Shown here: positions 1-33,630 of the stretch, one piece after another
Layout: each line of letters begins with the position of its first letter
Position numbering within the stretch: position 1 is the stretch's first letter
From: an uncultured Bacteroidales bacterium
GTDB lineage: Bacteria; Bacteroidota; Bacteroidia; Bacteroidales; UBA932
Assembly: GCA_944325505.1 (NCBI GenBank)
Contig: CALVAJ010000027.1
Location: 1-35,156 of the forward strand
Direction of reading: 5' to 3'
Length of the DNA: 35,156 bases
Program-made: the position numbers and the translations under genes
Notes under the pieces: model-generated
Told to the model about the DNA's origin: nothing
What the model saw: only the letters and a program-made list of their open reading frames with translations
Databases searched by the model: none

Positions 1-377
1 GGCTGGATGTCTTTTTCTGCGGAGATAAGATTGATGGTCACATATACTTCTGCGTGGAAGTCTTCAGGGAACAATGGTCTGAGAGCCCTGTCCACGAGTC
101 TGGCAGTAAGGATTTCGGCGTCGGATGCCTTTCCTTCACGTTTCATGAATCCGCCCGGGAACCTTCCCGCCGATGCGAATTTTTCCTTGTAGTCTACCTG
201 GAGCGGCATGAAGTCCACATCCTCTTTTGCATCTTTTGCGCATGTTACGCATGCCAGAAGCATGGTGCCTCCCATTTTGACTACTACCGAACCGTCTGCC
301 TGTTTGGCCAGTTTACCTGTTTCGATTTCTATTACCCTTCCGTCGGATAATTCGATTTTCTTGTTAATGATATTCAT
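1..377 (-). CDS. pnp: Polynucleotide phosphorylase, N-terminal part (cut by window edge)
   Basis: Polynucleotide phosphorylase is the phosphorolytic 3'-to-5' exoribonuclease of mRNA decay. Only the first 125 codons are present; the gene runs off the left edge. The reading frame was read from the minus strand starting at the ATG at 377-375 ([14 protein letters not shown]...). It shows the first RNase PH domain signature of PNPase, including [13 protein letters not shown] followed by the [11 protein letters not shown] stretch at about residues 80-105. These match the family closely (usual form GRxPGGFxKREGRPSE...RPLRPLF). It lies downstream of rpsO on the same strand, as in many bacteria, but a terminator stands between them. 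The leader just before the start contains a GGGGAGG stretch inside possible secondary structure. The product name is certain; the exact start is likely because the conserved domain begins right after it. Confidence 0.95.
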
Positions 378-382
378 GAATT

Positions 383-488
383 TTTTTTCAACCTGCCTCC
401 CCCTATGGGAGTTGATTAATATTTATTGTCTTCTTCCTTTGTACTATTCCGAAATATATATTGTGTTCCTGTGCCTGCCGCAGGTTGA
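383..488 (-). other. pnp leader with possible competing hairpins
   Basis: The minus-strand sequence before pnp holds a 9-base segment TCAACCTGC (488-480) that is exactly complementary to GCAGGTTGA (396-388), which lies directly upstream of the pnp start codon. The upstream copy can instead fold locally (CCTGC-G-GCAGG). A second small hairpin, CTCCC-ATAG-GGGAG, covers the purine-rich ribosome-binding stretch. No clean promoter was found for pnp, so it is not known whether the upstream copy is transcribed. The complementarity is seen directly; any regulatory meaning is inference. Confidence 0.3.
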
Positions 489-562
489 ATGGTTTGTTAA
501 CAGACACGTTGACCGTCCGATTTTTGCTGGGCGAGGATTTCCCTGCACAGCTTTTTAAAAAG

Positions 563-602
563 AAAGAGGCTGAATGCCGTATTCTGGCACCCTTGCCTCT
601 TT
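563..602 (-). terminator. Intrinsic terminator of rpsO
   Basis: On the minus strand an 8-bp perfect stem (AAAGAGGC / GCCTCTTT) encloses a smaller TGCC/GGCA hairpin and is followed by CTTTTT. It lies about 45 bases past the rpsO stop codon. A second small hairpin (AACCGG/CCGGTT, 634-617) sits between the stop codon and this terminator. Confidence 0.75.
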
Positions 603-646
603 CCATGCTTCCCTGAAACCGGTGACTTCCGGTTCCGGATATCCTT

Positions 647-922
647 TTATCGACGGAGACCGAGCTCCTTGACGATATTTCTGTATCTCTCGATGTCTCT
701 CTCTTTGAGGTAATCAAGGAGACGACGTCTCTGACCTACGAGCTTGAGAAGAGAACGGCGGGTTACATTGTCCTTCTTGTTCTGCTTCAGGTGCTCTGTC
801 AGATGAGCGATACGGTAGGAAAATAGAGCAACTTGACTCTCAGGAGAGCCGGTGTCCGTATTAGACTTTCCGTACTTCGCGAAAATCTCTTGCTTCTTTT
901 CAGCCTGTAAATATTCAGCCAT
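647..922 (-). CDS. rpsO: 30S ribosomal protein S15
   Basis: S15 is a primary binder of the central domain of 16S rRNA and helps assemble the 30S platform. The 91-residue product has the usual length (about 89) and the expected core: [17 protein letters not shown] near residues 22-38 and the [16 protein letters not shown] helix near 59-74, which includes the rRNA-binding region. The start ATG at 922 gives [18 protein letters not shown], a normal S15 beginning. It has its own strong promoter upstream and a terminator downstream, so it is probably a single-gene transcript. S15 represses its own translation in other bacteria through leader RNA structures that differ between phyla; the leader here has a hairpin at 961-981 that might serve, but nothing in the sequence proves it. 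Confidence 0.98.
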
Positions 923-960
923 TTTGCAAAAAGATTAATGATTAATAATGTTTCCACGCT

Positions 961-981
961 GTCTTCCCGTCACGGGCGGAC
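961..981 (-). other. Hairpin in rpsO leader
   Basis: Within the predicted rpsO leader the minus strand can fold as GTC-CCCGT-G-ACGGG-GAC, with a 2/2 internal loop between the 3-bp and 5-bp stems. It is a candidate site for S15 autoregulation by position only; the fold is short and does not match a leader I can name. Confidence 0.3.
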
Positions 982-989
982 AAGCGGGC

Positions 990-1021
990 GCAAAGATAGA
1001 CAGAAATTCCGATAAAACAAA
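990..1021 (-). promoter_or_regulatory. rpsO promoter, Bacteroidota type
   Basis: Minus strand: TTTG (1021-1018), then exactly 19 bases, then TATCTTTG (998-991). This is a full match to the TTTG-N19-TAnnTTTG consensus of the Bacteroidota primary sigma factor. It gives an untranslated leader of roughly 60-65 bases before rpsO. Confidence 0.85.
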
Positions 1022-1052
1022 CGGTTGTTTAACAAAAAATTAAATTATTGGG

Positions 1053-1060
1053 TACATTTG
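1053..1060 (+). promoter_or_regulatory. Promoter -7 box of the YgjP-like gene
   Basis: TACATTTG matches the Bacteroidota -7 consensus TAnnTTTG. No TTTG lies at the right distance upstream. The box ends only 6 bases before the likely ATG at 1067, so a transcript from it would begin at or very near the start codon. Confidence 0.55.
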
Positions 1061-1066
1061 CACCCC

Positions 1067-2080
1067 ATGAGAGAAAGAGTTTTCATCGATCCGGAAATAG
1101 GGCAGGTGCGCATAGTGAAAAGTGCGAGGAGCAGGCGCATAAGCATCAGGGTACATCCGCTCAGGGGAGTGGCGGTGAGCGTGCCGTATTTTCTGAAGTA
1201 TGATGATGGAATAAGGTTTTTCCTGCAGAAAAAGGAGTGGGTGAAGGAGGCATTGGTCCGTCAGCGGCTCAGACAGGATGTTGCGGAGAAGGCGGGAGGC
1301 GCAGTAGGGGTGTTGCGCGATGGGGTGACAGTCAGGACATTGCTGTCGGAAATCAGGTTTCATCGTACTTCCGCCGTTCCGGGTGACAGCCGCTCTGAAA
1401 TCCCGCCTGCCGTTCATGGCGGAGCCGGACGTCCGGTCCCGGATGCTGTGCCGGTGAGAACCATAACCGTGACCTCGGCCCTTGTGGAAGATGTCAGGCA
1501 GACCGGACGGCTGTTCCTTAGCCCCGACATGCCTCTTTCCTGCAAAACGGTATCATATCCTGATACGATGCCGGCTGAAGGTTCGCCGGAACTCTCATCC
1601 ATGCTTTCCGGAGTGCTGGTGAAGATACTCCGTGACGAGGCCCGCAGCCTGCTGCCGCAGAAACTGGCCTTTTTTGCCGGAAAGTACGGATTCTCATACG
1701 AAAAGGTGGTTATAAAACACAACTCCACCAACTGGGGCAGCTGTTCCACTCGGGGCAACATAAACCTTAATCTCAATCTCGTGCGCCTTCCGGAGCCTGT
1801 GTGCGATTACGTGTTGCTCCATGAATTGTCCCACCTGCGGCATCCTGACCACGGCCCCGAGTTCCATGCCCTTCTGGAACGCCTGTGTTCCGACAATATG
1901 AAACGGCTTTCTTTTCTCGTGGATTCATTGCAGGCGGCGGATGGTGCTCCCGGTCATTCTGGGATCAAGACATCGAAAGATTATTTCCACGGCCTGCTCT
2001 CTGCCATGCGCCGCAGCCGTGCGAAATTCCCTGTGCATCATGTCCTGGAACAGGAGGTGAAGAAATACCGTCTTATATAG
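1067..2080 (+). CDS. YgjP-like (DUF45/M48-type) zinc metallopeptidase-fold protein
   Basis: A member of the YgjP / DUF45 family, which has a gluzincin-like zinc site; E. coli YgjP has been reported as a UTP pyrophosphatase, so peptidase activity should not be assumed. The zinc motif is HELSHLRHPDH at about residues 252-262 (ligands likely H252, H256 and H262, with catalytic E253). Just before it stands NSTNWGSCS (219-227), the family motif normally written as xRWGSCS. The 337-residue protein is longer than the usual 230-240: a low-complexity stretch at about 100-175 separates the N-terminal part from the zinc domain, and about 65 residues follow it. The start at 1067 is preferred over an in-frame ATG at 1025 because a promoter box lies between the two. 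It is monocistronic and converges on the MATE gene across a palindromic element. Confidence 0.85.
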   Translation: MRERVFIDPEIGQVRIVKSARSRRISIRVHPLRGVAVSVPYFLKYDDGIRFFLQKKEWVKEALVRQRLRQDVAEKAGGAVGVLRDGVTVRTLLSEIRFHRTSAVPGDSRSEIPPAVHGGAGRPVPDAVPVRTITVTSALVEDVRQTGRLFLSPDMPLSCKTVSYPDTMPAEGSPELSSMLSGVLVKILRDEARSLLPQKLAFFAGKYGFSYEKVVIKHNSTNWGSCSTRGNINLNLNLVRLPEPVCDYVLLHELSHLRHPDHGPEFHALLERLCSDNMKRLSFLVDSLQAADGAPGHSGIKTSKDYFHGLLSAMRRSRAKFPVHHVLEQEVKKYRLI

Positions 2081-2081
2081 G

Positions 2082-2169
2082 GTCCCGTCCGGGCATGTGC
2101 AGGAGACATTGGCTCCCGAAAAGGGGGCCCGCTTGCGGGAAGGATCTCCGGAGTATGCCCGGACGGGAC
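2082..2169. repeat. Palindromic two-hairpin element, copy A
   Basis: A perfect 15-bp inverted repeat (GTCCCGTCCGGGCAT at 2082-2096; its complement at 2155-2169) continues inward through a mostly paired 5/5 loop into GGAGA/TCTCC. It encloses a core at 2107-2144 with two hairpins: CCC-GAAAA-GGG and CCCGC-TT-GCGGG. The core is nearly the same as that of the element at 6800-6882, whereas the outer arms share no sequence with it. The element fills the whole gap between two convergent stop codons (2080 and 2172), so it probably ends transcription in both directions, but neither side has a clear T tract. Confidence 0.75.
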
Positions 2170-2171
2170 TT

Positions 2172-3509
2172 CTATACGGCCTTGCCTTTCCAGCGGCCGC
2201 TCTTCAGATACAGCCCGCATACAACGAGCATCGCCACGGCGTAGATTACTTCAGTAAACCACGCTACCCACACCGGCGGTTTAAGCCCGTTGATGATGAG
2301 CACGCAGAAAGCGGTATAGATGACCAGCACCACGGCTTCCAGCCCGAATGCGGTGCGGGTATTCCCAGTTCCGGAAATCGCATTGAAGCAGATAAGTGCC
2401 GGCGTGGTGAAGATGTATGCGCCGCACAGCACCCACAGGGATGATACCGAACCGTCGATTATACCGGGTATGTCGGTGTATATGCCTATTACGGTCTTCG
2501 GGAATATGCAGAAAAATACCAGCAGGGGAATGACCGGCACATAAGCCAGTTTGATTACCCTCCTGACCAGCCTCATTGCCGTATCCTGATGGCCTTCCCC
2601 GATGAGGTTGCTGACCAGAGAACTGCAAGTGGAGGAAAATGCCGATGCGAATACCCACACGAATCCTGAAATGCTACGGACAACATTCGATACGGCCAGA
2701 GCCCTTTCCCCGAGGTGTTCCACGCACAGGAAGAATATGAACCAGACCGATACTGAAAGGAAGTTCTGGATCATCGTCCAGACAGAAATGGACAGGATTC
2801 CTCCGAGTTTGCTCCAGCTGAAGTCTATCCTGCGGTTGAGCCCGTATTTCTCACAGTCTGTCTTGCGTATGGTATATACAATGAAGAATATGAGCGAAAC
2901 AAGCTCTGCAAGGGTAGAACCTATCGCGGCACCGGCGATTCCCAGGGCCGGGAAGCCCAGGTGTCCGAACACCAGGATCCAGTTGAACACAACATTGGAG
3001 AGGACCATGACGATAGAGTTCAGTGTCAGGGTCTTCGTCTGGGTCGTTCCGACATAGAAGGCCCGGAACATTACCGTGACGAACGCGAATATGAACCCGA
3101 CCAGTCTCCACCGGACATAATCCATTGCCGCATCGGCTATTTCCGGGGATGATACCATCCGGTGCAATGCCCACGGGGAAATCATTTCCGACAGGGCTAT
3201 GATGACTACGGCAAGTCCCAGGAGGAAGTATACTCCATGGTAGAAGATGTTGCCCGTTTCCTTGTAGTTCCCTTCTCCGTTTCTTCTGGCGATAATGATC
3301 TGGGAGCCGAGCCCGAATCCCAGGCCGGCTACGAATATGGCCATGCAATACACTCCGGCTATGGCCGACGCCCCGAGTTCGACTTCTCCGACCCTGCCAA
3401 GAAAGGCCGTGTCTGTCATTCCGATAAGCTGTTCCATGATCAGGCTTATCAGAATCGGGTAGGCTACCTTCCAGATGTGGTGGTATGAATAGGGGAGAGT
3501 CTTTACCAT
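2172..3509 (-). CDS. MATE family multidrug/sodium antiporter
   Basis: An integral membrane exporter of the MATE (multidrug and toxic compound extrusion) family, NorM/DinF-like, expected to use a Na+ or H+ gradient to expel cationic compounds. The 445-residue protein has the usual length and about 12 hydrophobic segments arranged as two six-helix halves. Early motifs fit the family: PILISLIMEQLIGMTDTAFLG near residues 18-38 and GLGFGLGSQIIIARRNGEGN near 62-81. The start at 3509 gives MVKTLPYSYHHIWK, a typical N-terminus. It follows truB on the same strand but behind a hairpin with a T tract, so it is likely transcribed on its own. The substrate cannot be told from the sequence. Confidence 0.92.
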   Translation of the reverse strand: MVKTLPYSYHHIWKVAYPILISLIMEQLIGMTDTAFLGRVGEVELGASAIAGVYCMAIFVAGLGFGLGSQIIIARRNGEGNYKETGNIFYHGVYFLLGLAVVIIALSEMISPWALHRMVSSPEIADAAMDYVRWRLVGFIFAFVTVMFRAFYVGTTQTKTLTLNSIVMVLSNVVFNWILVFGHLGFPALGIAGAAIGSTLAELVSLIFFIVYTIRKTDCEKYGLNRRIDFSWSKLGGILSISVWTMIQNFLSVSVWFIFFLCVEHLGERALAVSNVVRSISGFVWVFASAFSSTCSSLVSNLIGEGHQDTAMRLVRRVIKLAYVPVIPLLVFFCIFPKTVIGIYTDIPGIIDGSVSSLWVLCGAYIFTTPALICFNAISGTGNTRTAFGLEAVVLVIYTAFCVLIINGLKPPVWVAWFTEVIYAVAMLVVCGLYLKSGRWKGKAV

Positions 3510-3515
3510 ATTAAG

Positions 3516-3547
3516 AAAAATCAGTATTTCGCGCCGCGAAGATACTG
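3516..3547 (-). terminator. Hairpin between truB and the MATE gene; terminator, perhaps overlapping a promoter
   Basis: Minus strand: TCAGTAT-C-TTCGC, loop GGC, GCGAA-ATACTGA, a 12-bp stem with one bulged base, followed by TTTTTC. That is a good intrinsic terminator for truB. The 5' arm also contains TATCTTCG, one base from the -7 consensus TAnnTTTG, about 30 bases before the MATE start, so the same bases may serve as the MATE promoter. Confidence 0.6.
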
Positions 3548-3589
3548 AAAAATTCTGTTATTGCTCTGGATTGGAATACGGGGATGGTT

Positions 3590-4561
3590 TCAGTCCCTCT
3601 CCTGTGACGGTATCCGGAACAGCAAGGCGGATACCGCATCCTCTACCCCGAGGCAGTCTTCTACCTTGAAGTCGCCGCTGCGGCTGCGTACAAGGGAGCA
3701 CAGATGCGCCCCGCCCTCCAGCGCTTCGCCAAGGTCCCTGGCAAACGCCCGGATGTATGTGCCCTTGCTGCATTCTATGCGTATCTCCGCTGTAGGAAGA
3801 TGCAGCCCTGAAGTATCTGCGACATTGATTCTGAGATTCTTTTCCGATGTTTCCCCATTCCGGTTGCTGTCTTGGACCGGCTTCCCTTCCGGATAGAAAT
3901 GCAGAAGTTCTATATCTGAAATCCTGATCTTCGCGGCTCTGATTACTGATTCTGCAGTGGTATCGAAAACTTTCAGGGACGCTGCTGCGGCGTCATTGCT
4001 GTCATCTACGTTGTTCCCGGTCTCTGCTCGGTCCGGTATTCCGGAGCCGTTCCCGCAGACTTGCTGCTGTTGTTTCCTGTAGAGTTTCCTCGCCAGCTCG
4101 TATGCCCTGACTCCGTCCACTGACTTTGCCGAGAAAAGCGGCGCTATCTGCTCCTGCTCTCCCAGGAATCCTTTCAGTTGTTCCCGGATCCCGTCTTCTG
4201 TGATATGTTCATAAGGGTACCGGGCGTCGATATCCTTCTCCAGATCGTAGGAAGGTGTAGTCGCACCGAAAGACACTCCTGCAATATATTCCTTGTCATG
4301 GCTTTGCAGCATTTCAGCCAGTTTTGTCGCATTTCCGATGCACACCAGCAGGACTCCTGTCGCCAGAGGATCGAGCGTTCCGGCATGTCCTACTTTCAGG
4401 TTCTTCTTGTGGAAATGCCTTATGGCGGCGAATTTGATTTTCCGTATAACGTCTGCCGATGTCCACCGGTAAGGTTTGTCCACCGGTATAATGATACCTC
4501 CCGGATAGTCTTCTATACTGTCCGAGAGGTGCATTCCTTTTCTCAGAATAACAGGCTCCAT
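3590..4561 (-). CDS. truB: tRNA pseudouridine(55) synthase TruB
   Basis: Converts U55 of the T-psi-C loop to pseudouridine in nearly all tRNAs. The catalytic motif is GHAGTLDPLATGVL at about residues 58-71, with the nucleophile Asp64. Other family features are the early PVDKPYRWTS (26-35), the conserved Tyr in DKEYIAGVSFGA, and CSKGTYIRAFARDLGE near the C-terminus. At 323 residues it is much longer than typical Bacteroidota TruB (about 230-240). The extra length comes from two polar low-complexity inserts, one after LYRKQQQQ (about residues 165-205) and one before the C-terminal strands (about 225-255). The core motifs are intact, so it should be active. The start lies 1 base after the rpiB stop, so the two genes are one operon. 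Confidence 0.95.
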   Translation of the reverse strand: MEPVILRKGMHLSDSIEDYPGGIIIPVDKPYRWTSADVIRKIKFAAIRHFHKKNLKVGHAGTLDPLATGVLLVCIGNATKLAEMLQSHDKEYIAGVSFGATTPSYDLEKDIDARYPYEHITEDGIREQLKGFLGEQEQIAPLFSAKSVDGVRAYELARKLYRKQQQQVCGNGSGIPDRAETGNNVDDSNDAAAASLKVFDTTAESVIRAAKIRISDIELLHFYPEGKPVQDSNRNGETSEKNLRINVADTSGLHLPTAEIRIECSKGTYIRAFARDLGEALEGGAHLCSLVRSRSGDFKVEDCLGVEDAVSALLFRIPSQERD

Positions 4562-4562
4562 T

Positions 4563-4994
4563 CTATTTTACCGGAATCTTGTCGATTCGTCTCTGGTGTC
4601 TGCCGCCTTCGAACTCCGTATCGAGCCAGGCATCGGTAATCCTGCACACCATGTCGAAGGATATGAAGCGCGCCGGCATTACAAGGACATTGGCATTGTT
4701 GTGCCGTTTCACCAGCTTGCCTATTTCTTCATTCCACGCGAGTCCTGCCCTGATTCCCTGGTGCTTGTTGAGCACTATCGCCATTCCGTTCCCTGTCCCG
4801 CACATCGCGATCCCCTTTTCAACCTCACCGCTCTCCACGGCCTCCGCCAACGGATGCGCCACATCCGGATAGTCCATACTCTCGGAAGAATACGTCCCGA
4901 AATCCTTTATCTGATATTTTTTCTCTTCCAGGTAGGCTATGAGTCTTTGTTTATACTCAAACCCGGCGTGGTCACAGCAAATGCCCAGTGTCAT
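4563..4994 (-). CDS. rpiB: Ribose 5-phosphate isomerase B
   Basis: Interconverts ribose 5-phosphate and ribulose 5-phosphate in the non-oxidative pentose phosphate pathway. The 143-residue length is normal. The N-terminal GICCDHAGFEYK carries the phosphate/sugar-binding Asp-His pair (D8, H9). The active-site Cys65 lies in AMCGTGNGM, and His98 in KRHNNANVL, matching the residues known from the E. coli enzyme. It is the first gene of the rpiB-truB operon, with a promoter box at 5039-5032. Confidence 0.96.
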   Translation of the reverse strand: MTLGICCDHAGFEYKQRLIAYLEEKKYQIKDFGTYSSESMDYPDVAHPLAEAVESGEVEKGIAMCGTGNGMAIVLNKHQGIRAGLAWNEEIGKLVKRHNNANVLVMPARFISFDMVCRITDAWLDTEFEGGRHQRRIDKIPVK

Positions 4995-5031
4995 ATTGAT
5001 ATGTTTTTAACGAAAATTCCGTTTGCCGCGC

Positions 5032-5062
5032 CAAAGGTACTGATTATTGCCGGAATATTAAA
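5032..5062 (-). promoter_or_regulatory. rpiB-truB promoter
   Basis: Minus strand: TTTA (5062-5059), 19 bases, TACCTTTG (5039-5032). The -7 box fits the consensus and the -33 box has three of four bases. Transcription would start about 32 bases before rpiB, just past the stop of the small membrane protein gene. Confidence 0.65.
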
Positions 5063-5297
5063 GCGGTTTCTTTCCTTCGGCCTTTCTGGCAAGGTTGACC
5101 ATGATCATGATGCCGTTGAGGATTGAAAGGATACCCAGTATGCTTAATGATGCGTAGCCCGTCAGGGCGAAGGTTTTTCCCTCCGTTGAGAAATCGGAGA
5201 AAATCCCTGTCGCAAGCATGAAGATTCCGGCCGGTATGGAAAGTATGCCGATGATGCTCCTGGTCTTGTCCTGTCTGTATATTTCCTTGAAAGTCAT
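5058..5297 (-). CDS. Small two-helix membrane protein, function unknown
   Basis: A 79-residue product starting at the ATG at 5297 (MTFKEIYRQDKTRS). An in-frame ATG at 5369 would add 24 residues, but a promoter-like TATCTTTA lies between the two, so the shorter form is preferred. It has two hydrophobic segments, at about residues 14-33 and 46-70, joined by a short polar loop (SDFSTEGKTF), and a positively charged C-terminal end (RKAEGKKPL). I do not recognise the family. It lies 63 bases before rpiB on the same strand, but rpiB has its own promoter box. Confidence 0.6.
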   Translation of the reverse strand: MTFKEIYRQDKTRSIIGILSIPAGIFMLATGIFSDFSTEGKTFALTGYASLSILGILSILNGIMIMVNLARKAEGKKPL

Positions 5298-5327
5298 GGC
5301 AGATGTGATGTGTTGAGATCTTTTGCA

Positions 5328-5335
5328 TAAAGATA
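5328..5335 (-). promoter_or_regulatory. Possible promoter of the small membrane protein
   Basis: TATCTTTA on the minus strand matches the -7 consensus except for the last base and lies 30 bases before the chosen start. No -33 box is seen. Confidence 0.35.
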
Positions 5336-5371
5336 TAGAAAAAACATTAAGAAAAAGAAAAATCTGCATCT

Positions 5372-5533
5372 ATGATGTCATGTCTTCTTGGCGTAGAATA
5401 TGATTCTGTGTACATTTACCGGAAAATCAGTCAGTATGAAACTGCATCGGAATATAAAAAACAGAAAGTAGGTGTATGGGAGCTGATAATATCAAAAACG
5501 GAAAAAGGACAGAAGTGGCTGGATGGTGAGTAA
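5372..5533 (+). CDS. Short ORF at the head of the nuclease islet, possibly a gene remnant
   Basis: A 53-codon reading frame (MMSCLLGVEYDSVYIYRK... ending KTEKGQKWLDGE). The composition looks protein-like (Tyr/Lys/Glu rich) and codon use is AT-rich like the DUF1016 gene downstream, unlike the flanking genes. I do not recognise it. It ends 11 bases before the ATG of the damaged XRE gene. It may be a complete small protein or the tail of a larger gene lost by deletion. The block 5370-5709 otherwise holds only this ORF and the XRE remnant. Confidence 0.35.
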   Translation: MMSCLLGVEYDSVYIYRKISQYETASEYKKQKVGVWELIISKTEKGQKWLDGE

Positions 5534-5544
5534 TATCGAATCAG

Positions 5545-5705
5545 ATGAAGAGAACGGCCAAATGGCTTGCTGAGGAATTAGGGAAGAATCCAACACAGTA
5601 AGCAAGTGTCGCACTGATGTGTCCCGGCCTGACCTGTACATATTAGACAAAATAGCAGCATTGCTTGACATTGGCAAGCGGGAACTTTTAACAGGAAAAG
5701 ATTGA
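5545..5705 (+). pseudogene. XRE-type helix-turn-helix regulator, frameshifted
   Basis: The first frame from the ATG at 5545 reads MKRTAKWLAEELGKNP and then stops at 5599-5601. The frame one base back continues without a break from 5592 as NTVSKCRTDVSRPDLYIL and ends DIGKRELLTGKD with a stop at 5703-5705. Joined, the two parts make one small XRE/Cro-type helix-turn-helix protein: the pattern TAKWLAEELGKNP-NTVSK...RPDLYILDKIAALLDI is typical of short Bacteroidota regulators of this kind. A single lost base near 5590-5595 (an A in CCAAC) explains it. The N-terminal helix is also short. The gene stands 4 bases before the DUF1016 gene and was probably its regulator. A sequencing error or programmed slippage cannot be excluded, but no classic slippery heptamer is seen. 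Confidence 0.65.
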
Positions 5706-5709
5706 AATC

Positions 5710-6771
5710 ATGGGAGATATTGCACAGATCCAAGAAGCGGAGTATGACGCAATTCTGCGACAGGCTGTCGCAGTTATTGACAGAACAAGAACCATGGTAG
5801 CAACAGCAGTATGCTCTGCCATAGGTACGGCTCACTGGGAAATAGGCAAATTGCTTCACGAAAGAAAAGTCGAGAGCAAACATGGAAGCGGTGTGGTCAA
5901 TCGTTTGTCCTATGACTTAAAATTGCGTTACCCCCAGATGGGTGTTTCGCCAAGGAATCTGTGGGATATAAAAAAATTCTACGAACGATTCTGTGACAGT
6001 GATCCAAAACTGCGACAATTTGTCGCAGTTTTACCATGGGGACATATACTGACATTGATGCGGAAGTTCGGTGAAGATGACAATGCCATTTTATACTATG
6101 CACAGGAAATCATTTCAAAAGGATGGAATCGCGAACTTCTATCCAGTGCCATCTCTCTGAAAATGCACATAAGAAAGAGCGATCTTTCCGATAACAATTT
6201 CGAGCAGACTCTGCCCGGCACACAGGCTATGTTTGCCAACGAAGTGTTCAGAAGCGGTTATAATCTTGGATTCCTTGGTGTCAAAGACCCGATATTGGAA
6301 ACAGCACTTGAAACTCGACTGGTAGAAAAAGTAAAACAGTTCCTTTTGGAACTTGGCAGAGGGTTCACCTACATTGGCAATCAGCATGTGCTTGAATACA
6401 ATGGAAGGCGGAGTAAGGTAGATATGCTGTTCTTTCATCGCGGATTACATTGTCTTGTAGCCTTTGACTTGAAGATAGGCGAATTCAAGCCAGAATATGC
6501 AGGTAAGATGAACTACTACCTGTCATTACTTGACCGTCTGGAGCGCAGGGAAGATGAAAACCGTTCTATCGGCATCATTTTATGTGCCGAGAAAGATCGC
6601 GTGGAAGTGGAACTGGCATTGGAAGATATGGGCAAGCCTATTGGTGTGGCGGACTATCAGTTGATTGTCCCGCAGGAAGAATTAAAAAAGATAGTAGCGG
6701 AAGAAGTTGAAGCTTTTGGAAAAGAACTTCCTTTTCGTGTTGATACTGAAGAGGATTCAAATAATAAATGA
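5710..6771 (+). CDS. DUF1016 / YhcG-type PD-(D/E)XK nuclease-like protein
   Basis: A 353-residue protein of the YhcG (DUF1016) family. The N-terminal domain has the family motifs HWEIGKLL (about 42-49), YPQMGVSPRNLWDIKKFY (74-91) and LPWGHILTLMRK (108-119). The C-terminal domain holds the PD-(D/E)XK nuclease core: Asp238 in KVDMLFF and Asp253-Leu-Lys255 in VAFDLKIGEFKPEYAGKMNYYL. Both catalytic positions are present, so it may cut nucleic acid. Family members often stand near restriction-modification or other defence genes, and their exact role is not settled. Here it sits alone with a broken XRE regulator, and its codon use is clearly more AT-rich than the genes on both sides, which suggests horizontal arrival. 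It converges on gltX across palindromic element B. Confidence 0.88.
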   Translation: MGDIAQIQEAEYDAILRQAVAVIDRTRTMVATAVCSAIGTAHWEIGKLLHERKVESKHGSGVVNRLSYDLKLRYPQMGVSPRNLWDIKKFYERFCDSDPKLRQFVAVLPWGHILTLMRKFGEDDNAILYYAQEIISKGWNRELLSSAISLKMHIRKSDLSDNNFEQTLPGTQAMFANEVFRSGYNLGFLGVKDPILETALETRLVEKVKQFLLELGRGFTYIGNQHVLEYNGRRSKVDMLFFHRGLHCLVAFDLKIGEFKPEYAGKMNYYLSLLDRLERREDENRSIGIILCAEKDRVEVELALEDMGKPIGVADYQLIVPQEELKKIVAEEVEAFGKELPFRVDTEEDSNNK

Positions 6772-6799
6772 TGACAGTATCGCGCTAATCTTAAAAGGA

Positions 6800-6882
6800 C
6801 ATCTGCCCGTTGATGAAGATCCTCCCCGCCAAGCGGGGCCCCTCCCTTTTCGGGAGCCAATGTCTTCATCAACGGGCAGATG
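6800..6882. repeat. Palindromic two-hairpin element, copy B
   Basis: Perfect 20-bp arms (6800-6819 and 6863-6882; CATCTGCCCGTTGATGAAGA on the plus strand) enclose a 43-base core. On the minus strand the core reads CATTGGCTCCCGAAAAGGGA and onward, with hairpins CTCCC-GAAAA-GGGAG and CCCCGC-TTG-GCGGGG. It equals the core of copy A apart from extra G/C bases that lengthen both hairpins symmetrically. The arms are unrelated to those of copy A. It sits between the convergent ends of the DUF1016 gene and gltX and is a likely two-way transcription barrier. Confidence 0.75.
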
Positions 6883-6904
6883 GCTTGATTCTGATATGTA
6901 AGTC

Positions 6905-8560
6905 TTACATCAGGGCTTTCCTGATGTTTTCTATACGCACTGCAAGTTCCTTCTTTCCGATAAGGGAGACGATGTCTGCGATACCCAGGCCGCTGGAAGC
7001 GCCTACGAGGGCGAGCCTCAGGCAGTTCATTACCTTGCCCATCGGCCACTCCCGGCTGCGGATGAGTTCCTCCATCGGACCCTCGATCTGCTCATGTGTG
7101 AACTCAGGGCCGGCAGGACCGTTTCCTCCGTCAAACCCCTCGATGAAATCCGCCACCTGGAACGCCAGAGTGTAATTCTCCTCCTTCCAGAACTTCGCCA
7201 CATCTTTCTCGACATAAGTCTGAGGGGAAACGAAAAGATATGATGCGATATCCCAGAAGTCAGCTACGAAAGAGGCCCTCTCTTTGATAAGCGACACGAC
7301 CTTCTGCACATAGTCATGCGTGAATATCCGGTTCTTGAAGTCCGCTCCCTGGACAGTGACTTCGGCTCCCGCCGTCAGGGCGCATTTCGGGCAGGCGACC
7401 ACCTGTATGCCGTGCTCCTCGAGCACAGGGATGAAAAGGTCAGTGAGCTCGGCATCGCTTTTTGTGCGCAGGTACTCCTTGTTGTACCATTTCGCCTTTT
7501 CAGGGTTGAACCTTGCCCCGGACTTGATGACCCTCTCGAGAGAGAAAGCCTTGATCAGTTCGTCCATGGTGAAAAGCTCCCTGTCATCCCCCGGATTCCA
7601 CCCGAGCATGGCCAGCATGTTCACGAATGCCTCAGGGAAATAGCCGTCTTCGCGGTATCCGCGTGAAACCTCGCCCTGGGCGTTGGTCCATTTGAGCGGG
7701 AATACAGGGAAGCCGAGACGGTCTCCGTCCCTCTTGCTCAGCTTGCCTTTCCCGTCCGGTTTCAGAAGCAGCGACAGGTGGGCGAATCTCGGCTGTGAAT
7801 CCTGCCAGCCGAATGCTTCATACAGGAGATAGTGCAGAGGCAGGGAAGGAAGCCATTCCTCTCCGCGTATGACCTCGGTGATTTCCATCAGGTGGTCATC
7901 CACGATATTCGCCAGATGGTATGTAGGCAGCTCGTCAGCCCTTTTCCAGAGCACCTTGTCATCAAGAGTGTCGGTATTTACCTCAATGTGTCCGCGGATA
8001 AGATCGTCCATCTTCACCACCCTGTTCTCAGGCATCCTGAACCTGATGGTCCAGTCCGTATGCGTCTCCAGAAGCGGCTTCCACTCGCTTTCCGGCATTG
8101 AAACGGAGTTGCGCAGCGACTTGCGGGTGATATGGTTGTAGATGAATGTCTCCTTGGCAGCTTCGGCTTCGGCACGCTTGGCTGCAAGCTCCTCTGCGGT
8201 GTCGAACGCGTAGTATGCATAGCCTTTTTCCACCAGTTCCTCGGCATATTTGCGATAGATGCCCCGGCGCTGGGACTGTCTGTAAGGGGCGTGTGGATGT
8301 CTCTCTGAAGGAGTCTCCACTACATTGCCTTCCGCATCCACTCCCTCGTCCGGAATGATACCGCACCAGTTGAGGGCTTCGATGATATATTTCTCCGCTC
8401 CCGGGACGAATCTCTGGGAGTCGGTATCTTCAATCCTTATGATGAAATCCCCGCCGTGCTGCTTGGCGTAGAGGTAGTTGTAAAGGGCTGTACGGACTCC
8501 ACCCATGTGGAGCGGCCCTGTCGGTGACGGGGCGAATCTTACTCTGGTCTTACGGTCCAT
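6905..8560 (-). CDS. gltX: Glutamyl-tRNA synthetase
   Basis: A class I aminoacyl-tRNA synthetase that attaches glutamate to tRNA-Glu. The HIGH-type motif is PSPTGPLHMGGVRTALYNYL at residues 11-30, and the KMSKS-type motif is KLSKR at about 273-277. IRIEDTD near 41-47 is also diagnostic. At 551 residues it is somewhat longer than the usual 480-510. The start 21 bases after the ftsZ stop makes it the last gene of the division operon. That puts a translation gene under the division promoter unless an internal promoter exists; I see no clear -7 box in the short gap. Confidence 0.97.
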   Translation of the reverse strand: MDRKTRVRFAPSPTGPLHMGGVRTALYNYLYAKQHGGDFIIRIEDTDSQRFVPGAEKYIIEALNWCGIIPDEGVDAEGNVVETPSERHPHAPYRQSQRRGIYRKYAEELVEKGYAYYAFDTAEELAAKRAEAEAAKETFIYNHITRKSLRNSVSMPESEWKPLLETHTDWTIRFRMPENRVVKMDDLIRGHIEVNTDTLDDKVLWKRADELPTYHLANIVDDHLMEITEVIRGEEWLPSLPLHYLLYEAFGWQDSQPRFAHLSLLLKPDGKGKLSKRDGDRLGFPVFPLKWTNAQGEVSRGYREDGYFPEAFVNMLAMLGWNPGDDRELFTMDELIKAFSLERVIKSGARFNPEKAKWYNKEYLRTKSDAELTDLFIPVLEEHGIQVVACPKCALTAGAEVTVQGADFKNRIFTHDYVQKVVSLIKERASFVADFWDIASYLFVSPQTYVEKDVAKFWKEENYTLAFQVADFIEGFDGGNGPAGPEFTHEQIEGPMEELIRSREWPMGKVMNCLRLALVGASSGLGIADIVSLIGKKELAVRIENIRKALM

Positions 8561-8581
8561 GTTATTTTCTGTTTTTTATTA

Positions 8582-9850
8582 TCAGTGTACTTTGTTTATG
8601 TCCTGATTGTTTCGTTTTGTTATCCTTCTTATCGACGGAGTCTCTTCCAGCTCACCGAGACTCTGCCCAGGCTGCACGTCCAGCACGGGACGGTTGTTCT
8701 CGTCGAAATTGAATGTACGTACGTTGTCGGAACTGTTGTATCCTATTTTTGCAGGACTGTCGGATTCTTCATCAAGTCCGAGTTCGAGGGCAGCGGAGGA
8801 CTGGGATTTGTCGTATATGAAGTCGCTGTCTATCATTATGATATTGCTCGGGTTTATCATTGAAGGTATATCCTTCTTGAAACCGGTGGCAATGACCGTG
8901 ATGCTCACCTTGTCCCCCCATTCGGGATCTTCTTCCCATACCAGGCCGGTCTTGAAGTTATTGGCGTTTCCAGTGTATTCGGCGATTTTCCGGTTGATTT
9001 CCTGGAGCTCGTTGACATACAGGCCTTTCTCGTTTTTTCCTCCGGTTACATTTACCAGGACATTCTTTGCGGTCTTGAGATTGTAGTCGTTGAGCAGAGG
9101 GGATTCAAGAGCGCCTTTCACGGCATCCGCAATCCTGTTTTCCCCTGTACCGGTACCGCAACCCATAAGGGCGATCCCGCTGTTGCGCATCATTGCCCTT
9201 ACATCGGCGAAATCCACATTTATGTGTCCGTACTTGTTCATTATTTCGGTGATGCTCCTTACTGCGGTTGCAAGCACCTCGTCTGCTTTCGGGAACGCTT
9301 CATGAGAAAGCATCGAACCGAAATAGTCGTAGAGCTTCTCGTTGTTGATGAGCAGCAGGCTGTCCACGTTCTTCTCGAGTTCGTTGATGCCGTCTATGGC
9401 CTTTGCGTATTTGTCAGCTCCTTCATTCTTGAAAGGTATGGTGACTACCCCGACGGTCAGGATTCCGCGGGCCTTGGCCATATTTGCGATTACAGGGGAG
9501 GCGCCTGTCCCTGTACCGCCTCCCATCCCTGCAGTGATGAAAACCATCTTGGTGTTGTTTTCCAGTATCCTGGCTATTCTTTCCTCGGATTCGATGGCCG
9601 CGTTCCTTCCTTTGGTAGGGTCGCAGCCTGCACCGAGTCCTGCGCCGAGCTGGATTTTAAGCGGTACGCTGCATTTGCTCAGGGCCTGTGCATCTGTATT
9701 GCACACTATGAAGCAGCATCCCTGGACCTTCTGGTTGTACATGTAGTTTACGGCGTTGCATCCGCCTCCGCCTACTCCTATGACTTTTATTATGGAATTT
9801 TCATCCGTCCAGTCCGTAGGGACTATCATATCGTCCAATATCTCATCCAT
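8582..9850 (-). CDS. ftsZ: Cell division protein FtsZ
   Basis: The tubulin-like GTPase that forms the Z ring at midcell. The 422-residue protein has the nucleotide-binding glycines GVGGGGCNAVNYM (26-37), the tubulin signature GGGTGTGAS (110-118) and the T7 synergy loop NVDFADV (211-217) that completes the GTPase site of the next subunit. After the globular core (to about residue 330) comes a variable linker and a C-terminal peptide, EETPSIRRI, in the place of the conserved tail that binds FtsA. A strong ribosome-binding site, AGGAGGAG, stands about 8 bases before the ATG at 9850. It follows ftsA by 14 bases. Confidence 0.98.
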   Translation of the reverse strand: MDEILDDMIVPTDWTDENSIIKVIGVGGGGCNAVNYMYNQKVQGCCFIVCNTDAQALSKCSVPLKIQLGAGLGAGCDPTKGRNAAIESEERIARILENNTKMVFITAGMGGGTGTGASPVIANMAKARGILTVGVVTIPFKNEGADKYAKAIDGINELEKNVDSLLLINNEKLYDYFGSMLSHEAFPKADEVLATAVRSITEIMNKYGHINVDFADVRAMMRNSGIALMGCGTGTGENRIADAVKGALESPLLNDYNLKTAKNVLVNVTGGKNEKGLYVNELQEINRKIAEYTGNANNFKTGLVWEEDPEWGDKVSITVIATGFKKDIPSMINPSNIIMIDSDFIYDKSQSSAALELGLDEESDSPAKIGYNSSDNVRTFNFDENNRPVLDVQPGQSLGELEETPSIRRITKRNNQDINKVH

Positions 9851-9864
9851 ATCAGCTCCTCCTG

Positions 9865-11328
9865 TCAGATTTCTTCGTCATTCATCTCTTTGTTCATGTC
9901 GTACAGAGTGCCTGTGAATTTGTCCACGGCTTTCTGTATCTTCGTTTTCCATGAGACTTTCTGCACTCTCTGTCTTTTTTGCTGCGGCTCTTTTTTCCTT
10001 GCATCGGATATGTGTCCGGTATCTTCTTCAGGGAAAAGCGTCCCGCTGCGCAGCTGTGCCTCATCCCGGCTTTCCGGCTCCTCTCCGCTGTGCTCCGTCC
10101 CGTCCTCCAGCACTACCGACGAGTCTCTTACGGAGTAGTTTTCAGGAACCGTGCAGTCATCGCAGTTGTCATGTACCGCGGCCAGTATCATTCCGATGGA
10201 TGTGACGGCTTCCGTTTCGTGTACGCCAATACATCCTCCGCTTGAAAACATGGGCCTCGGGTAGCCGGTGCGGACAGAATATCCGGACAATTCCGTAATG
10301 AAATTGCCGCAGTTGGCAAGGTTCGCCCCGCCGCCGGTCAGTACTATGCCGCTGCGCAGCCGGTCTGCAAACCCGCTTTTCTGTATCTCATACAGAATGG
10401 CTTCCATGATTTCCTGGACTCTGCAGGTTATGACCTCTGAGAGGTATTTGACCGGAAGGTCCTTATACTGTGCAGTGGCCCCTATGTTGATTCTGAGGAT
10501 CTTTTCATTCATGTTCTGCAGTTTCTCCGGCATGCAGATCCCGTGTGCCAGCTTTATGTTCTCCGCAAGGACTTCAGAAAATATCCTGCACTCGGTGTCT
10601 ATGTCATTCGTGACCGATTTCCCTCCGAACGGAATGGCGGCGTAATGTCTCATGATTCCGCCCGAGTATATGCTTACGGAAGTCACTCCGGCCCCGAAAT
10701 CTATCAGTGCCACTCCGCTCTCCATCTCGGCTGCGGTCAGCACCGCCTTGGCACTGGTATCAGGGGTGAAATATTTCCCTGCCACTCCGAGTTTCAGACT
10801 GTTGAACACCAGGTCGATGTTCTGCAGGTATCTCTTGTTGCCTATGAATATCTTGAAGTTGCCTTCTATCATGTCGCTGGCCATGCCGATTATGTCCTTT
10901 TCCACCAGCTGGAAATCCTCTGAGGTGGAGAAAGACTGGGCGACTGCACCGAAAAGCACTTCTTTCGGATCTTCCAGAGGATATTCCTGCTGGGCCATGT
11001 CCTTGAGGTAGTTTATGTCGTCCGCCGTGATGCACTCATCCGGATTCAGCTTGATGCTGCCCTGGTTGGTTTCCTGCCTTACGCTGTAGCGTGGCATGCC
11101 TACCACAGCCTGGGTGATCCTGATATCCAACTCCTTTTCAGCAGCCTCGATCGCTGGCCTCAGGGCCGAAGCCACCTGTGTCGGATTGAAGATATAGCTG
11201 TACCGGATTCCTGAAGAAGGAATCTCCTTATAGTATATTATCTGGATGTCCTCCCCATTTACCCTCGCTATGGTAAGTGCGAACCTGGAAGTCCCCAGAT
11301 CGATTGAGACAATGTGTTTTTCGTCCAT
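9865..11328 (-). CDS. ftsA: Cell division protein FtsA
   Basis: An actin-like ATPase that tethers FtsZ to the inner membrane and recruits later division proteins. It begins MDEKHIVSIDLGTSRFALTI, the phosphate-1 loop of the actin fold, and has the second phosphate loop in VALIDFGAGVTSVSIYSGG and the adenosine motif in VLTGGGANLANCG. The 1C (SHS2) subdomain lies between. The 487 residues include a long variable tail after about residue 390 that ends in a helix rich in Lys and aromatic residues (VSWKTKIQKAVDKFTGTLYD), which probably serves as the membrane-targeting helix. It is spaced 6 bases from ftsQ and 14 from ftsZ. Confidence 0.97.
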   Translation of the reverse strand: MDEKHIVSIDLGTSRFALTIARVNGEDIQIIYYKEIPSSGIRYSYIFNPTQVASALRPAIEAAEKELDIRITQAVVGMPRYSVRQETNQGSIKLNPDECITADDINYLKDMAQQEYPLEDPKEVLFGAVAQSFSTSEDFQLVEKDIIGMASDMIEGNFKIFIGNKRYLQNIDLVFNSLKLGVAGKYFTPDTSAKAVLTAAEMESGVALIDFGAGVTSVSIYSGGIMRHYAAIPFGGKSVTNDIDTECRIFSEVLAENIKLAHGICMPEKLQNMNEKILRINIGATAQYKDLPVKYLSEVITCRVQEIMEAILYEIQKSGFADRLRSGIVLTGGGANLANCGNFITELSGYSVRTGYPRPMFSSGGCIGVHETEAVTSIGMILAAVHDNCDDCTVPENYSVRDSSVVLEDGTEHSGEEPESRDEAQLRSGTLFPEEDTGHISDARKKEPQQKRQRVQKVSWKTKIQKAVDKFTGTLYDMNKEMNDEEI

Positions 11329-12117: not shown

Positions 12118-13469
12118 ATCCTTTTTTCAAGCAGTTCCGTTATCGGACCGGTGAACCGGTCAATATTTCCGGCTCCGAATGTGATGAGCACATCCACAGG
12201 TTCGCCCTTCAGAAAGTCCATCAGCTCCTCTTTTTTCAGCAGGACCTTTTCCGGTGTCGTGATCTTGTCGAATATTATTTCGGATGTCACTCCCGGTATG
12301 GGCTCTTCCCTTGCAGGGTATATGTCCAGAAGGATTACTTTATTCGCAGCACTGAGCGCCTGTGCGAATTCATCGGCAAAGTCCCGTGTCCTTGTATATA
12401 GATGCGGCTGGAATACGGCCGTGAGCCTGCGCCCCGGAAACATTTCGCGTATGGAGCTTATCGCGGTGGAAATTTCTTTCGGATGGTGAGCGTAGTCGTC
12501 GATGTAGGAGCATGACGGGGTGTTGAGATGGATGTCGAATCTGCGCTTTACCCCCTGGAACGAGGCCAGTGCCTCCTTGATTTTCTCCGGCTCCAGCCCC
12601 CATGTCAATGCCACTGCGGCTGCAGCTATGCCGTTTTCCACGTTCACCCATCCCGGAATTCCCATCCGGCATCCTTTGATTGAAACAGAAGGCCCGTTGA
12701 GGGTGAATGTAATGTATCCGCACCGGTCGACTGTCATGTCGGACGCATGGAAATCGGCTTCAGGACTGTCATAGGAGTACCTGAGTATTCTGGCGCCGGT
12801 GTCCTCCGGCGTGATGTCAAGTCCGAGTTTTGCTATGACTGTGCCGCTCACCTGTGCCGCGAATTCCTTGAATGCCGCCTTTACATGCTCCAGGTCGGAA
12901 TATATGTCCAGGTGGTCGGCGTCCATTGCCGTAATGACGGCGATTTCAGGGTGGAGCTGCAGGAAGGAGCGGTCGAATTCATCGGCCTCTGCAACAATCA
13001 CATTGTTCCTGCTTATAAGGAGATTTGTGCCGTAGTTCTTTGATATGCCACCCAGAAAAGCCGAACAACCCTCCCCGCATGCCTGGAAAATATGTGCAAG
13101 CAGCGTGCTGGTAGTGGTCTTCCCGTGCGTTCCAGCTACGGCCAGACATCTCTGTCCCGCGGAAATCTCTCCGAGGATACGGGAGCGCTTTACGGTCCTG
13201 TAGCCATGTCCCATGACATATACAAGTTCCCCCATGTCGTGCGGGATGGCAGGCGTATAGACTACAAGCGTGTCCTCCACGTCTTTAGGGATATAGTCCG
13301 TATTGTCCTCATAATGGATCTTTATCCCCTCATCCTCAAGTTCATGCGTCAGCTCGGACGGAGTGCGGTCATAGCCGGATACTTCATATCCTCTGGCATG
13401 GTAATACCTGGCGATCGCACTCATCCCGATGCCTCCTATTCCTATGAAATATATGTTTTTATATGTCAT
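12114..13469 (-). CDS. murC: UDP-N-acetylmuramate--L-alanine ligase
   Basis: The ATP-dependent ligase that adds L-alanine to UDP-MurNAc, the first amino acid of the peptidoglycan stem. The Rossmann-type N-terminal domain begins with IGIGGIGMSAIARYYHARGY (10-29). The ATP loop GTHGKTTT is at residues 113-120, and the substrate/ADP residues in DDYAHHPKEI (about 317-326) are typical of MurC. The 451-residue length is normal. It overlaps murG by 4 bases and ftsQ by 4 bases, so all three are tightly coupled. Confidence 0.97.
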   Translation of the reverse strand: MTYKNIYFIGIGGIGMSAIARYYHARGYEVSGYDRTPSELTHELEDEGIKIHYEDNTDYIPKDVEDTLVVYTPAIPHDMGELVYVMGHGYRTVKRSRILGEISAGQRCLAVAGTHGKTTTSTLLAHIFQACGEGCSAFLGGISKNYGTNLLISRNNVIVAEADEFDRSFLQLHPEIAVITAMDADHLDIYSDLEHVKAAFKEFAAQVSGTVIAKLGLDITPEDTGARILRYSYDSPEADFHASDMTVDRCGYITFTLNGPSVSIKGCRMGIPGWVNVENGIAAAAVALTWGLEPEKIKEALASFQGVKRRFDIHLNTPSCSYIDDYAHHPKEISTAISSIREMFPGRRLTAVFQPHLYTRTRDFADEFAQALSAANKVILLDIYPAREEPIPGVTSEIIFDKITTPEKVLLKKEELMDFLKGEPVDVLITFGAGNIDRFTGPITELLEKRI

Positions 13470-14654: not shown

Positions 14655-14742
14655 GGAAGGGGATGGGATTACAGGAAACGTTGCGCCCGCACAGGGAGGG
14701 CCCCACGGAGTGGGAGGGTTTCCTGGAATCTTATCCCCTTCC
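14655..14742. repeat. Palindromic two-hairpin element, copy C (related build, different core)
   Basis: Arms of 25 bases (14655-14679 and 14718-14742) pair with three mismatches. The 38-base core reads on the minus strand as a CCCAC-TCC-GTGGG hairpin, then GGCCC, then a second GC-rich hairpin (CCC-TGTGC-GGG). The build and size match copies A and B and all three carry a GGGCCC-type joint, but the core sequence is not the same. The right arm runs into the ftsW stop codon (14733-14731) and its last codons. It is the only copy inside an operon. Confidence 0.55.
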
Positions 14743-16101: not shown

Positions 16102-16118
16102 ATGTTTCCCTCCAGTCG

Positions 16119-33559: not shown

Positions 33560-33630
33560 ATATAGGGGCGACTCAAAAGGAGGAATTTCAAGCGTAACGA
33601 AGAAAGTACCCTTTTGAGTCGCCTCTGTAT
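33560..33630. repeat. Long inverted repeat between convergent genes
   Basis: A perfect 14-bp stem (GGCGACTCAAAAGG at 33567-33580; complement at 33610-33623) that extends to about 21 bp with two G-T pairs. The 29-base loop contains ATTTCAAGCGTAACGAAG. It lies between the stops of the DUF1680 gene and metK and is a likely two-way barrier to transcription, though it has no long T tract. Confidence 0.65.

Follow-up and report, generated by a model that had tools for sequence, protein, structure and literature searches.

Palindromes with a conserved branched tip and locus-specific arms at gene ends of an uncultured Bacteroidales genus, read as candidate bidirectional terminators

Two palindromes in a contig of an uncultured Bacteroidales bacterium raise the question of what kind of element keeps its core from copy to copy inside arms that differ between loci. 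The window analysed here is the whole stretch of 35,156 nt (GCA_944325505.1, contig CALVAJ010000027.1, 1-35,156), and this assembly is referred to below as the own genome. Copies A and B have in common CATTGGCTCCCGAAAAGGG and the next hairpin, through GGATC. This core of ~40 nt lies inside arms that are unrelated between the copies and complementary within each, as the preliminary description had observed, and its placement of copy A in the exact gap between two convergent stop codons agrees with the ORFs (Table 1). The arms of copy A are 25 nt each with a complementarity of 84%, and those of copy B are 20 nt and 100% complementary. At up to three mismatches, the 19-mer CATTGGCTCCCGAAAAGGG occurs twice in the window, compared to 0.01 occurrences expected from shuffles. 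The top three inverted repeats of the window are copy A, copy B, and a third copy of a diverged subfamily, type II, the right arm of which overlaps the stop and the final three codons of the FtsW-like gene. A further inverted repeat, type X, belongs to a different family. Its core is AGGAATTTCAAGCGTAACGAAGAAAGTAC, and a longer relative with other arms was recognised by eye in the congener G091 (L395), at a junction that holds a type I element in the own genome and in G076. L050, a relative, lacks the segment ~5133-6878, which comprises copy B and the YhcG/DUF1016 gene; there, gltX adjoins the region upstream of the segment.

Table 1. Elements and neighbouring genes in the window
Feature	Position	Strand	Details
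Copy A, whole palindromic element	2081..2171	+	fills the space separating two convergent stop codons
Copy A left arm, locus-specific	2082..2106	+	from inverted-repeat detection
Copy A conserved core	2107..2144	+	hairpin 1 CTCCC-GAAAA-GGGGG 2113-2127; hairpin 2 CCCGC-TT-GCGGG 2128-2139
Copy A right arm	2145..2169	+	pairs with left arm
Copy A flanking ORF	1025-2080	+	YgjP-like; convergent
Copy A flanking ORF	2172-3509	-	MatE; convergent
Copy B, whole element	6800..6882	-	arms 6800-6819 / 6863-6882
Copy B core	6820-6862	-	hairpin 1 6842-6856; hairpin 2 6824-6838
Copy B neighbour	5710-6771	+	YhcG/DUF1016 gene
Copy B neighbour	6905-8560	-	glutamyl/glutaminyl-tRNA synthetase family gene, termed gltX
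Third copy (type II, diverged subfamily)	14655..14742	+	arms 14655-14679 / 14718-14742; core 14680-14717
Third-copy neighbour	14731-16197	-	FtsW/RodA-family gene
Third-copy neighbour	13466-14596	-	MurG-like gene
Type X inverted repeat (different family)	33560..33630	.	29-nt loop; directly after the stop of ORF 31499-33550

The proposed search with a covariance model found many further copies, both in the own genome and in its relatives, so that the refuting outcome of no other copies named in the preliminary description did not occur. The model, R1, draws on 46 of the 73 distinct cores, spans 61 positions with 15 pairs, and gave 18 matches at E ≤ 1 in the own genome, comprising five strong copies (60-77 bits), eight type II copies (28-35 bits; one inside the window, match 14670-14727), and five weaker matches. 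The type II core is a second core type, with GTTGC, a hairpin with the loop GCACA, another hairpin, and GGGAGG in succession. Among the five weaker matches, the near-identical L195-L197 (22.6 bits) look like coding sequence and were left out of the counts. Among 121 congeneric genomes, 44 match R1 at E ≤ 0.001, with search filters that lose some weak matches, and at the order level two of 295 genomes match at E ≤ 1e-5, namely the own genome and G344, which belongs to another genus of the same family. Matches were obtained in G344 and in each of four genomes reached via other loci, at 2 to 8 copies per genome. An exact-pattern scan of GTDB contigs yielded at least 117 stretches, mostly from Bacteroidales or Cryptobacteroides MAGs. 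Since the search pattern fixed the 5' half of the core, the conservation of this half in the contig-scan set is partly by construction; the 3' half lies outside the pattern and is likewise conserved, in model rows that were, however, chosen by a looser pattern including the GGRAGG end. Four hits, in Prevotellaceae (L090), Niastella (L110), Acidobacteria (L131), and Clostridia (L150), do not extend to the remainder of the core and appear to be chance matches. No Rfam family reached its gathering threshold in window positions 1-10000 or at the element in nine loci; copy B overlapped mir-934 at 25.5 bits (E 0.19, cut-off 80). Our literature search, confined to open-licence papers, found no published description of the element.

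Cores of a similar plan, recognised by eye as further types, sit in other arms in G099 (type III), G128 (type IV), and, as a single case, G076. The three type IV copies of G128 (L316, L317, L318) have similar cores that include a third hairpin with a GAA loop; their arms are perfect but differ from copy to copy (29, 32, and 28 bp). Most of the type III copies fetched from G099 (L202-L218) have arms and flanks in common, apparently within a longer repeated segment, and L200, L201, and L219 have other arms than these. Among the remaining loci, L062, L100, and L111 are long variants that contain a larger structure instead of hairpin 2, with TCGTGARC or TTGTGAAC and GYGARCAGC arranged around a further stem of locus-specific sequence; L069 and L113 are shortened forms.

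The predicted structure is a long stem that ends in two short hairpins. Folding z-scores are -5.7 for copy A and -6.5 for copy B. The three-way junction proposed in the preliminary description is clean in the RNA fold of copy B, whereas in the minimum free energy (MFE) fold of copy A hairpin 2 is paired differently and the centroid structure omits it. Across the type I copies, both hairpins are present in the MFE fold of 112/124 with RNA parameters and 109/124 with DNA parameters, and the plus strand folds more stably in 100/124 (RNA) and 115/124 (DNA). Each arm pairs far better with its own partner than with the arms of other copies (median -53 vs. -18.8 kcal/mol), and own-arm pairing beats the best 5% of the control in 120 of the 124 copies. 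The covariation score is 0.374, compared to 0.119 in shuffled and at most 0.080 in slid alignments, and seven of the 15 pairs show two-sided change (inner stem 5/5, hairpin 2 2/5, hairpin 1 0/5). The number of pair types shows no excess (18 vs. 18.2 in shuffles), and the outermost pair of hairpin 1 is broken in 13 of the 46 cores. Columns 30, 34, and 50 change together, reading G,A,G in 30/46 cores and A,G,A in 11/46, a pattern that could partly reflect two lineages. The core of copy A is 4 nt shorter than that of its ortholog L050, in the unpaired strand linking both hairpins; core differences are thus not all paired, which corrects the earlier claim that both sides of each hairpin change together.

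The two hairpins differ in their loops. Hairpin 1 has the GNRNA-like pentaloop GAAAA in 117/126 copies, and hairpin 2 (n = 126) closes with a GNA triloop in 66 copies, CNNG in 17, GNYA in nine, GNRA in three, and other loops in 31. GNA, GNNA, and CNNG are stable DNA loops, and the loop types of hairpin 2 at most lean towards DNA as the folded form. In the excerpts of PMC8794818, GNRA and CUUG are described as stable in DNA as well as RNA.

The genomic position of the copies is as expected of terminators. Of the 124 copies, 13 lie inside a called ORF (27 with the first of two ORF callers, 13 with the second) and 18 lack resolved neighbours, leaving 93, of which 65 are convergent, 25 tandem, and three divergent; in the background, 100 of 550 adjacent gene pairs are convergent, element junctions included. 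Once similar-armed copies are merged, which reduces the 124 to 99, the 77 resolved ones comprise 54 convergent, 20 tandem, and three divergent. In convergent copies, the core lies at a median of 45 and 41 nt from the stop codons, and T and A frequencies are highest 25-29 nt from the core. A T-tract on the right is found in 44 of the 65 convergent copies, an A-tract on the left in 43, and both in 33, against 14 and 15 in the reverse controls; the corresponding values for the 54 collapsed convergent copies are 38, 36, and 28, against 11 and 12. In the 25 tandem copies, the tracts are weak, and the core is oriented along transcription in 10 and opposite to it in 15, with some of these copies orthologous to one another. 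The convergent positions and the tracts on either side favour the two-way terminator class that the preliminary description had listed among its readings, suggesting that the copies work like a bidirectional terminator. Judged by the 25 commonest of 159 Pfam families of 137 neighbours, the neighbours are ordinary genes: none of these families has more than four members, IF-2 and EF-P lead with four each, and no transposase is among them. Ten proteins scanned for a gene linked to the clusters L323 and L324 comprised seven of ordinary families and three without a family. One copy in G415 (L428:1032-1563) follows a tmRNA gene (Rfam match 1032-1433) at a distance of ~70 nt.

How far the arms are shared differs between lineages. 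Within 30 nt of the core, arm identity between copies is 0.48-0.61 in the own genome, G128, G091, and JAFURF, compared to a null of 0.47, whereas it is 0.83-0.90 in G135, where five copies at four loci have arms alike to ~30 nt and nothing in common beyond. No target duplication was noticed by eye in the G135 flanks. In G415, an HGW-Bacteroidetes-5 genome, six scored copies are 84% alike beside the core and less so outward (0.52-0.84 within 30 nt), SUYO is intermediate (n = 3, 0.62-0.76), and the two copies of G344 have arms that are similar by eye. Arms are thus unrelated in most genomes tested, as first described, but not in G135 and G415, where the arms in common make the element an ordinary dispersed palindromic repeat; the second refuting outcome named at first, copies with similar arms, thus applies to these two genomes but not to most of those tested. 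Forty-eight copy pairs have a neighbour gene in common, some being two copies of one locus, and in many cross-species pairs at the same neighbour gene arm similarity is no higher than chance. Beside IF-2, the element is found in five species with mostly unrelated arms; the arms of L032 and L133, for example, score 0.42 (null median 0.45), though the last 300 nt of the adjoining IF-2 genes are 91% identical. This divergence is fast for drift and could reflect arm replacement. These comparisons indicate that in certain lineages arms and core have spread together as a unit, and that arms in the own genus have mostly diverged or been replaced.

To follow single sites, the junctions of own-genome copies were compared with those of G091, G076, and G101; gltX is 98% identical to its own-genome counterpart in G091 and 96% in G076, placing G076 outside the pair of own genome and G091. 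Type II cores are inverted at five of eight orthologous sites (L187, L188, L191, L192, and L193) and lie the same way round at L189, L190, and L194, with the L191/L288 and L194/L391 orientations read by eye. None of the three type I orthologs of own copies in these genomes is inverted. Elsewhere, the type I pair L048/L145 is inverted within matching arms, and the core beside IF-2 has one orientation in two species and the other in three. Among 277 arm pairs scored (12 pairwise ortholog comparisons at nine loci), 251 are unchanged and 26 changed, of which nine changed on both sides and still pair, seven changed on one side and still pair, and 10 are broken. The L192 site has GACGCC, GACATC, and GACTTC in three species, facing GGCGTC, GATGTC, and GAAGTC on the other arm. 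The earlier suggestion that the outer stem need only pair is supported by such compensating changes and by the unrelated arms beside the same gene, but the broken pairs limit it; this reading and that of a two-way terminator class are compatible. Larger changes are also found: the L165 junction has a type I element in the own genome and G076 and another element in G091, and the arms at the L193 junction are different in the own genome. These differences between sister species indicate that replacement of elements or arms does occur. G091 lacks one hairpin (L392), and the own genome lacks another (L409).

Sites without a core bear on where the core came from. It has been proposed that the core is a small mobile element that enters the loops of existing terminator hairpins without arms, so that the arms would be host terminators, and two orthologous sites in G076 with core-free simple hairpins fit this proposal. 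At the 3' end of gltX, the outer arm GGACATC-GCCC is in common with copy B, and at ftsW|murG the flanks and arms are kept. Given the outside position of G076, a gain of the core in the own genome and G091 would be the shorter history at both sites, and core-free terminators can have long perfect stems here, such as 20 bp at the own L405 junction. However, the ftsW|murG hairpin retains CAGGAAA, which matches the inner stem of the element itself, as a deletion would leave it, and thus reads as a loss. At the copy A site, the element is absent in G091 and has dwindled to a small hairpin in G076, but L050 keeps the core and left arm with most of the right arm missing. As L050 (82-85% identity around this junction) is as distant as G076 and farther than G091, the absence in G091 is a loss. 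The copies of clear recent ancestry in G135 and G415 have their arms in common too. We rate entry into terminator loops as unlikely. We give hardly more weight to the element being a mobile palindromic repeat of the MITE or REP kind, non-autonomous and moving together with its arms, for which terminators are harmless insertion spots. The shared arms in G135, G415, and G344, the clustering of copies and their position near contig ends, and the 77 of 121 congeneric genomes without a match would all suit such a repeat. Sites lacking the core, compared with the clean empty sites that such a repeat would leave, resemble deletions or replaced terminators. Against it, copies persist at the same genes across several species, and a passive insert would not need two-sided tracts. 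Y1 transposases (PF01797) occur in 32 of the 44 genomes with the element and 57 of the 77 others, in counts made by eye that include many weak matches and assume the same 121 genomes, and of 30 stretches around RAYT-like genes, one contained a strong copy; it belongs to the own genome and lies at a distance of 2.3 kb. Mobilisation by RAYT (Y1) was rejected given this lack of co-occurrence; in six stretches searched, the palindromes close to two RAYT-like genes did not resemble the element. In L338 (own genome) and L339 (G026), Y1-transposase-like genes have imperfect palindromes of another sequence nearby.

The orientation of the core weighs on two further readings. A functional RNA that acts in one orientation within the 3' untranslated region, such as a stability or processing element, would agree with the strong RNA fold, the covariation, the GNRNA-like pentaloop, and the greater stability of the plus strand; it is nevertheless improbable, as tandem cores point both ways, cores are inverted between orthologs, and the GNNA tetraloops of hairpin 2 are more often GNYA than GNRA, unlike the usual RNA preference. 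The frequent inversions between relatives, including L048/L145 with its matching arms, would be expected if the core were a DNA switch actively inverted by a recombinase. Known recombinase-driven DNA switches use conserved repeats, whereas the arms here vary from site to site, no switched promoter or gene came to notice, and passive template switching yields the same outcome, which makes such a switch very improbable indeed.

Resting on fold, position, tracts, covariation, inversion, and arm turnover, all of which are established by computation, the account that we favour, with somewhat better than even confidence, is that template switching at hairpins rewrites the arms of bidirectional terminators and selection holds their tip. 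Each copy would be a bidirectional intrinsic terminator, mostly flanked by convergent genes, with an outer stem of ~20-30 bp whose arms occupy much of the space between the stop codons and tracts that would yield U runs on both strands. At its apex, the conserved ~43-nt core would form two short hairpins in a three-way junction. The arms would mainly be constrained to pair, and during replication, hairpin-templated copying may rewrite one arm from the other or turn the tip round; template switching of this kind would produce both the locus-specific yet complementary arms and the inverted cores. The core sequence, including unpaired bases, may be kept because a putative trans-acting factor probably recognises the folded tip. 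New copies may occasionally arise by arms and core spreading as one unit, as the arms in common within G135 and G415 suggest, and many copies in the own genus would be old and inherited along with gene ends. Counting against this account, tracts on both sides are clear in only 33 of the 65 convergent copies and weak in tandem ones, and the need for a putative binding factor to explain core conservation is a burden on it. The broken arm pairs, the missing excess of pair types, the lack of two-sided change in hairpin 1, the rapid divergence of the L032 and L133 arms, and the replacements at the L165 and L193 junctions likewise speak against it.

Known systems resemble the element in part. In the excerpts of PMC1852404, the uptake-sequence terminators of Neisseria and Pasteurellaceae are likewise hairpins between convergent genes, with an A-tract before and a T-tract after and a repeat built into many terminators. 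There, the conserved repeat is the stem, whereas the present element has a mostly unique stem and a conserved, branched tip; moreover, a genome generally has 1,000 or more uptake sites, compared to ~13 copies of the element in the own genome. REP and BIME sequences, as far as the excerpted PMC3733652 and PMC12306157 describe them, are also short dispersed intergenic palindromes that are sometimes clustered, but the present element lacks the association with RAYT, and its ends vary while its inside is conserved. REP elements have a GTAG or CGTC tetranucleotide at one end; in a crude look without a control, GTAG or CTAC occurred anywhere in the outer arms of 22/99 copies. The stem-loop repeats NEMIS and ERIC (PMC1590033, in excerpt) are matched by G135 and G415, where arms and core form one dispersed repeat of ~100 bp or more, whereas the arms of different copies have little or nothing in common within several own-genus genomes. 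Closest to the proposed mechanism are the template-switch hairpins of PMC8794818, the excerpts of which describe template switching that produces perfect stems and inverted loops. The likeness lies in perfect stems, multi-base compensating changes, and loops inverted by single events; in these excerpts, however, loop inversions are rare and mostly concern 4-nt loops, and what template switching contributes to the upkeep of short stems is less clear, while the tip that is inverted at several sites of the present element is structured and ~40 nt long.

A broader, tentative, and on balance doubtful reading is that the branched tips form a family in which several types of sequence take up a single shape, with a pentaloop hairpin beside a small hairpin with a GNA-type loop, and which serves as a docking site for a putative factor where housekeeping genes end. 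Folded as DNA or RNA, the tip would act either way round, and the host would keep it while template switching rewrites the stem. If this were true, the sites would be natural recorders of hairpin-templated mutation and tip inversion. The pattern of conservation runs opposite to that of an ordinary repeat and is directly legible, the stem being nearly free as long as it pairs and the tip not. The origin of perfect hairpins by template switching has been treated with microRNA and rRNA genes (PMC8794818, in excerpt). If the account is right, the orthologous copies in a few species would offer a natural data set on how perfect hairpins arise and change in bacteria, through arm-to-arm copying and tip inversion, and the copies would point to a putative partner of terminator tips in this uncultured gut genus.
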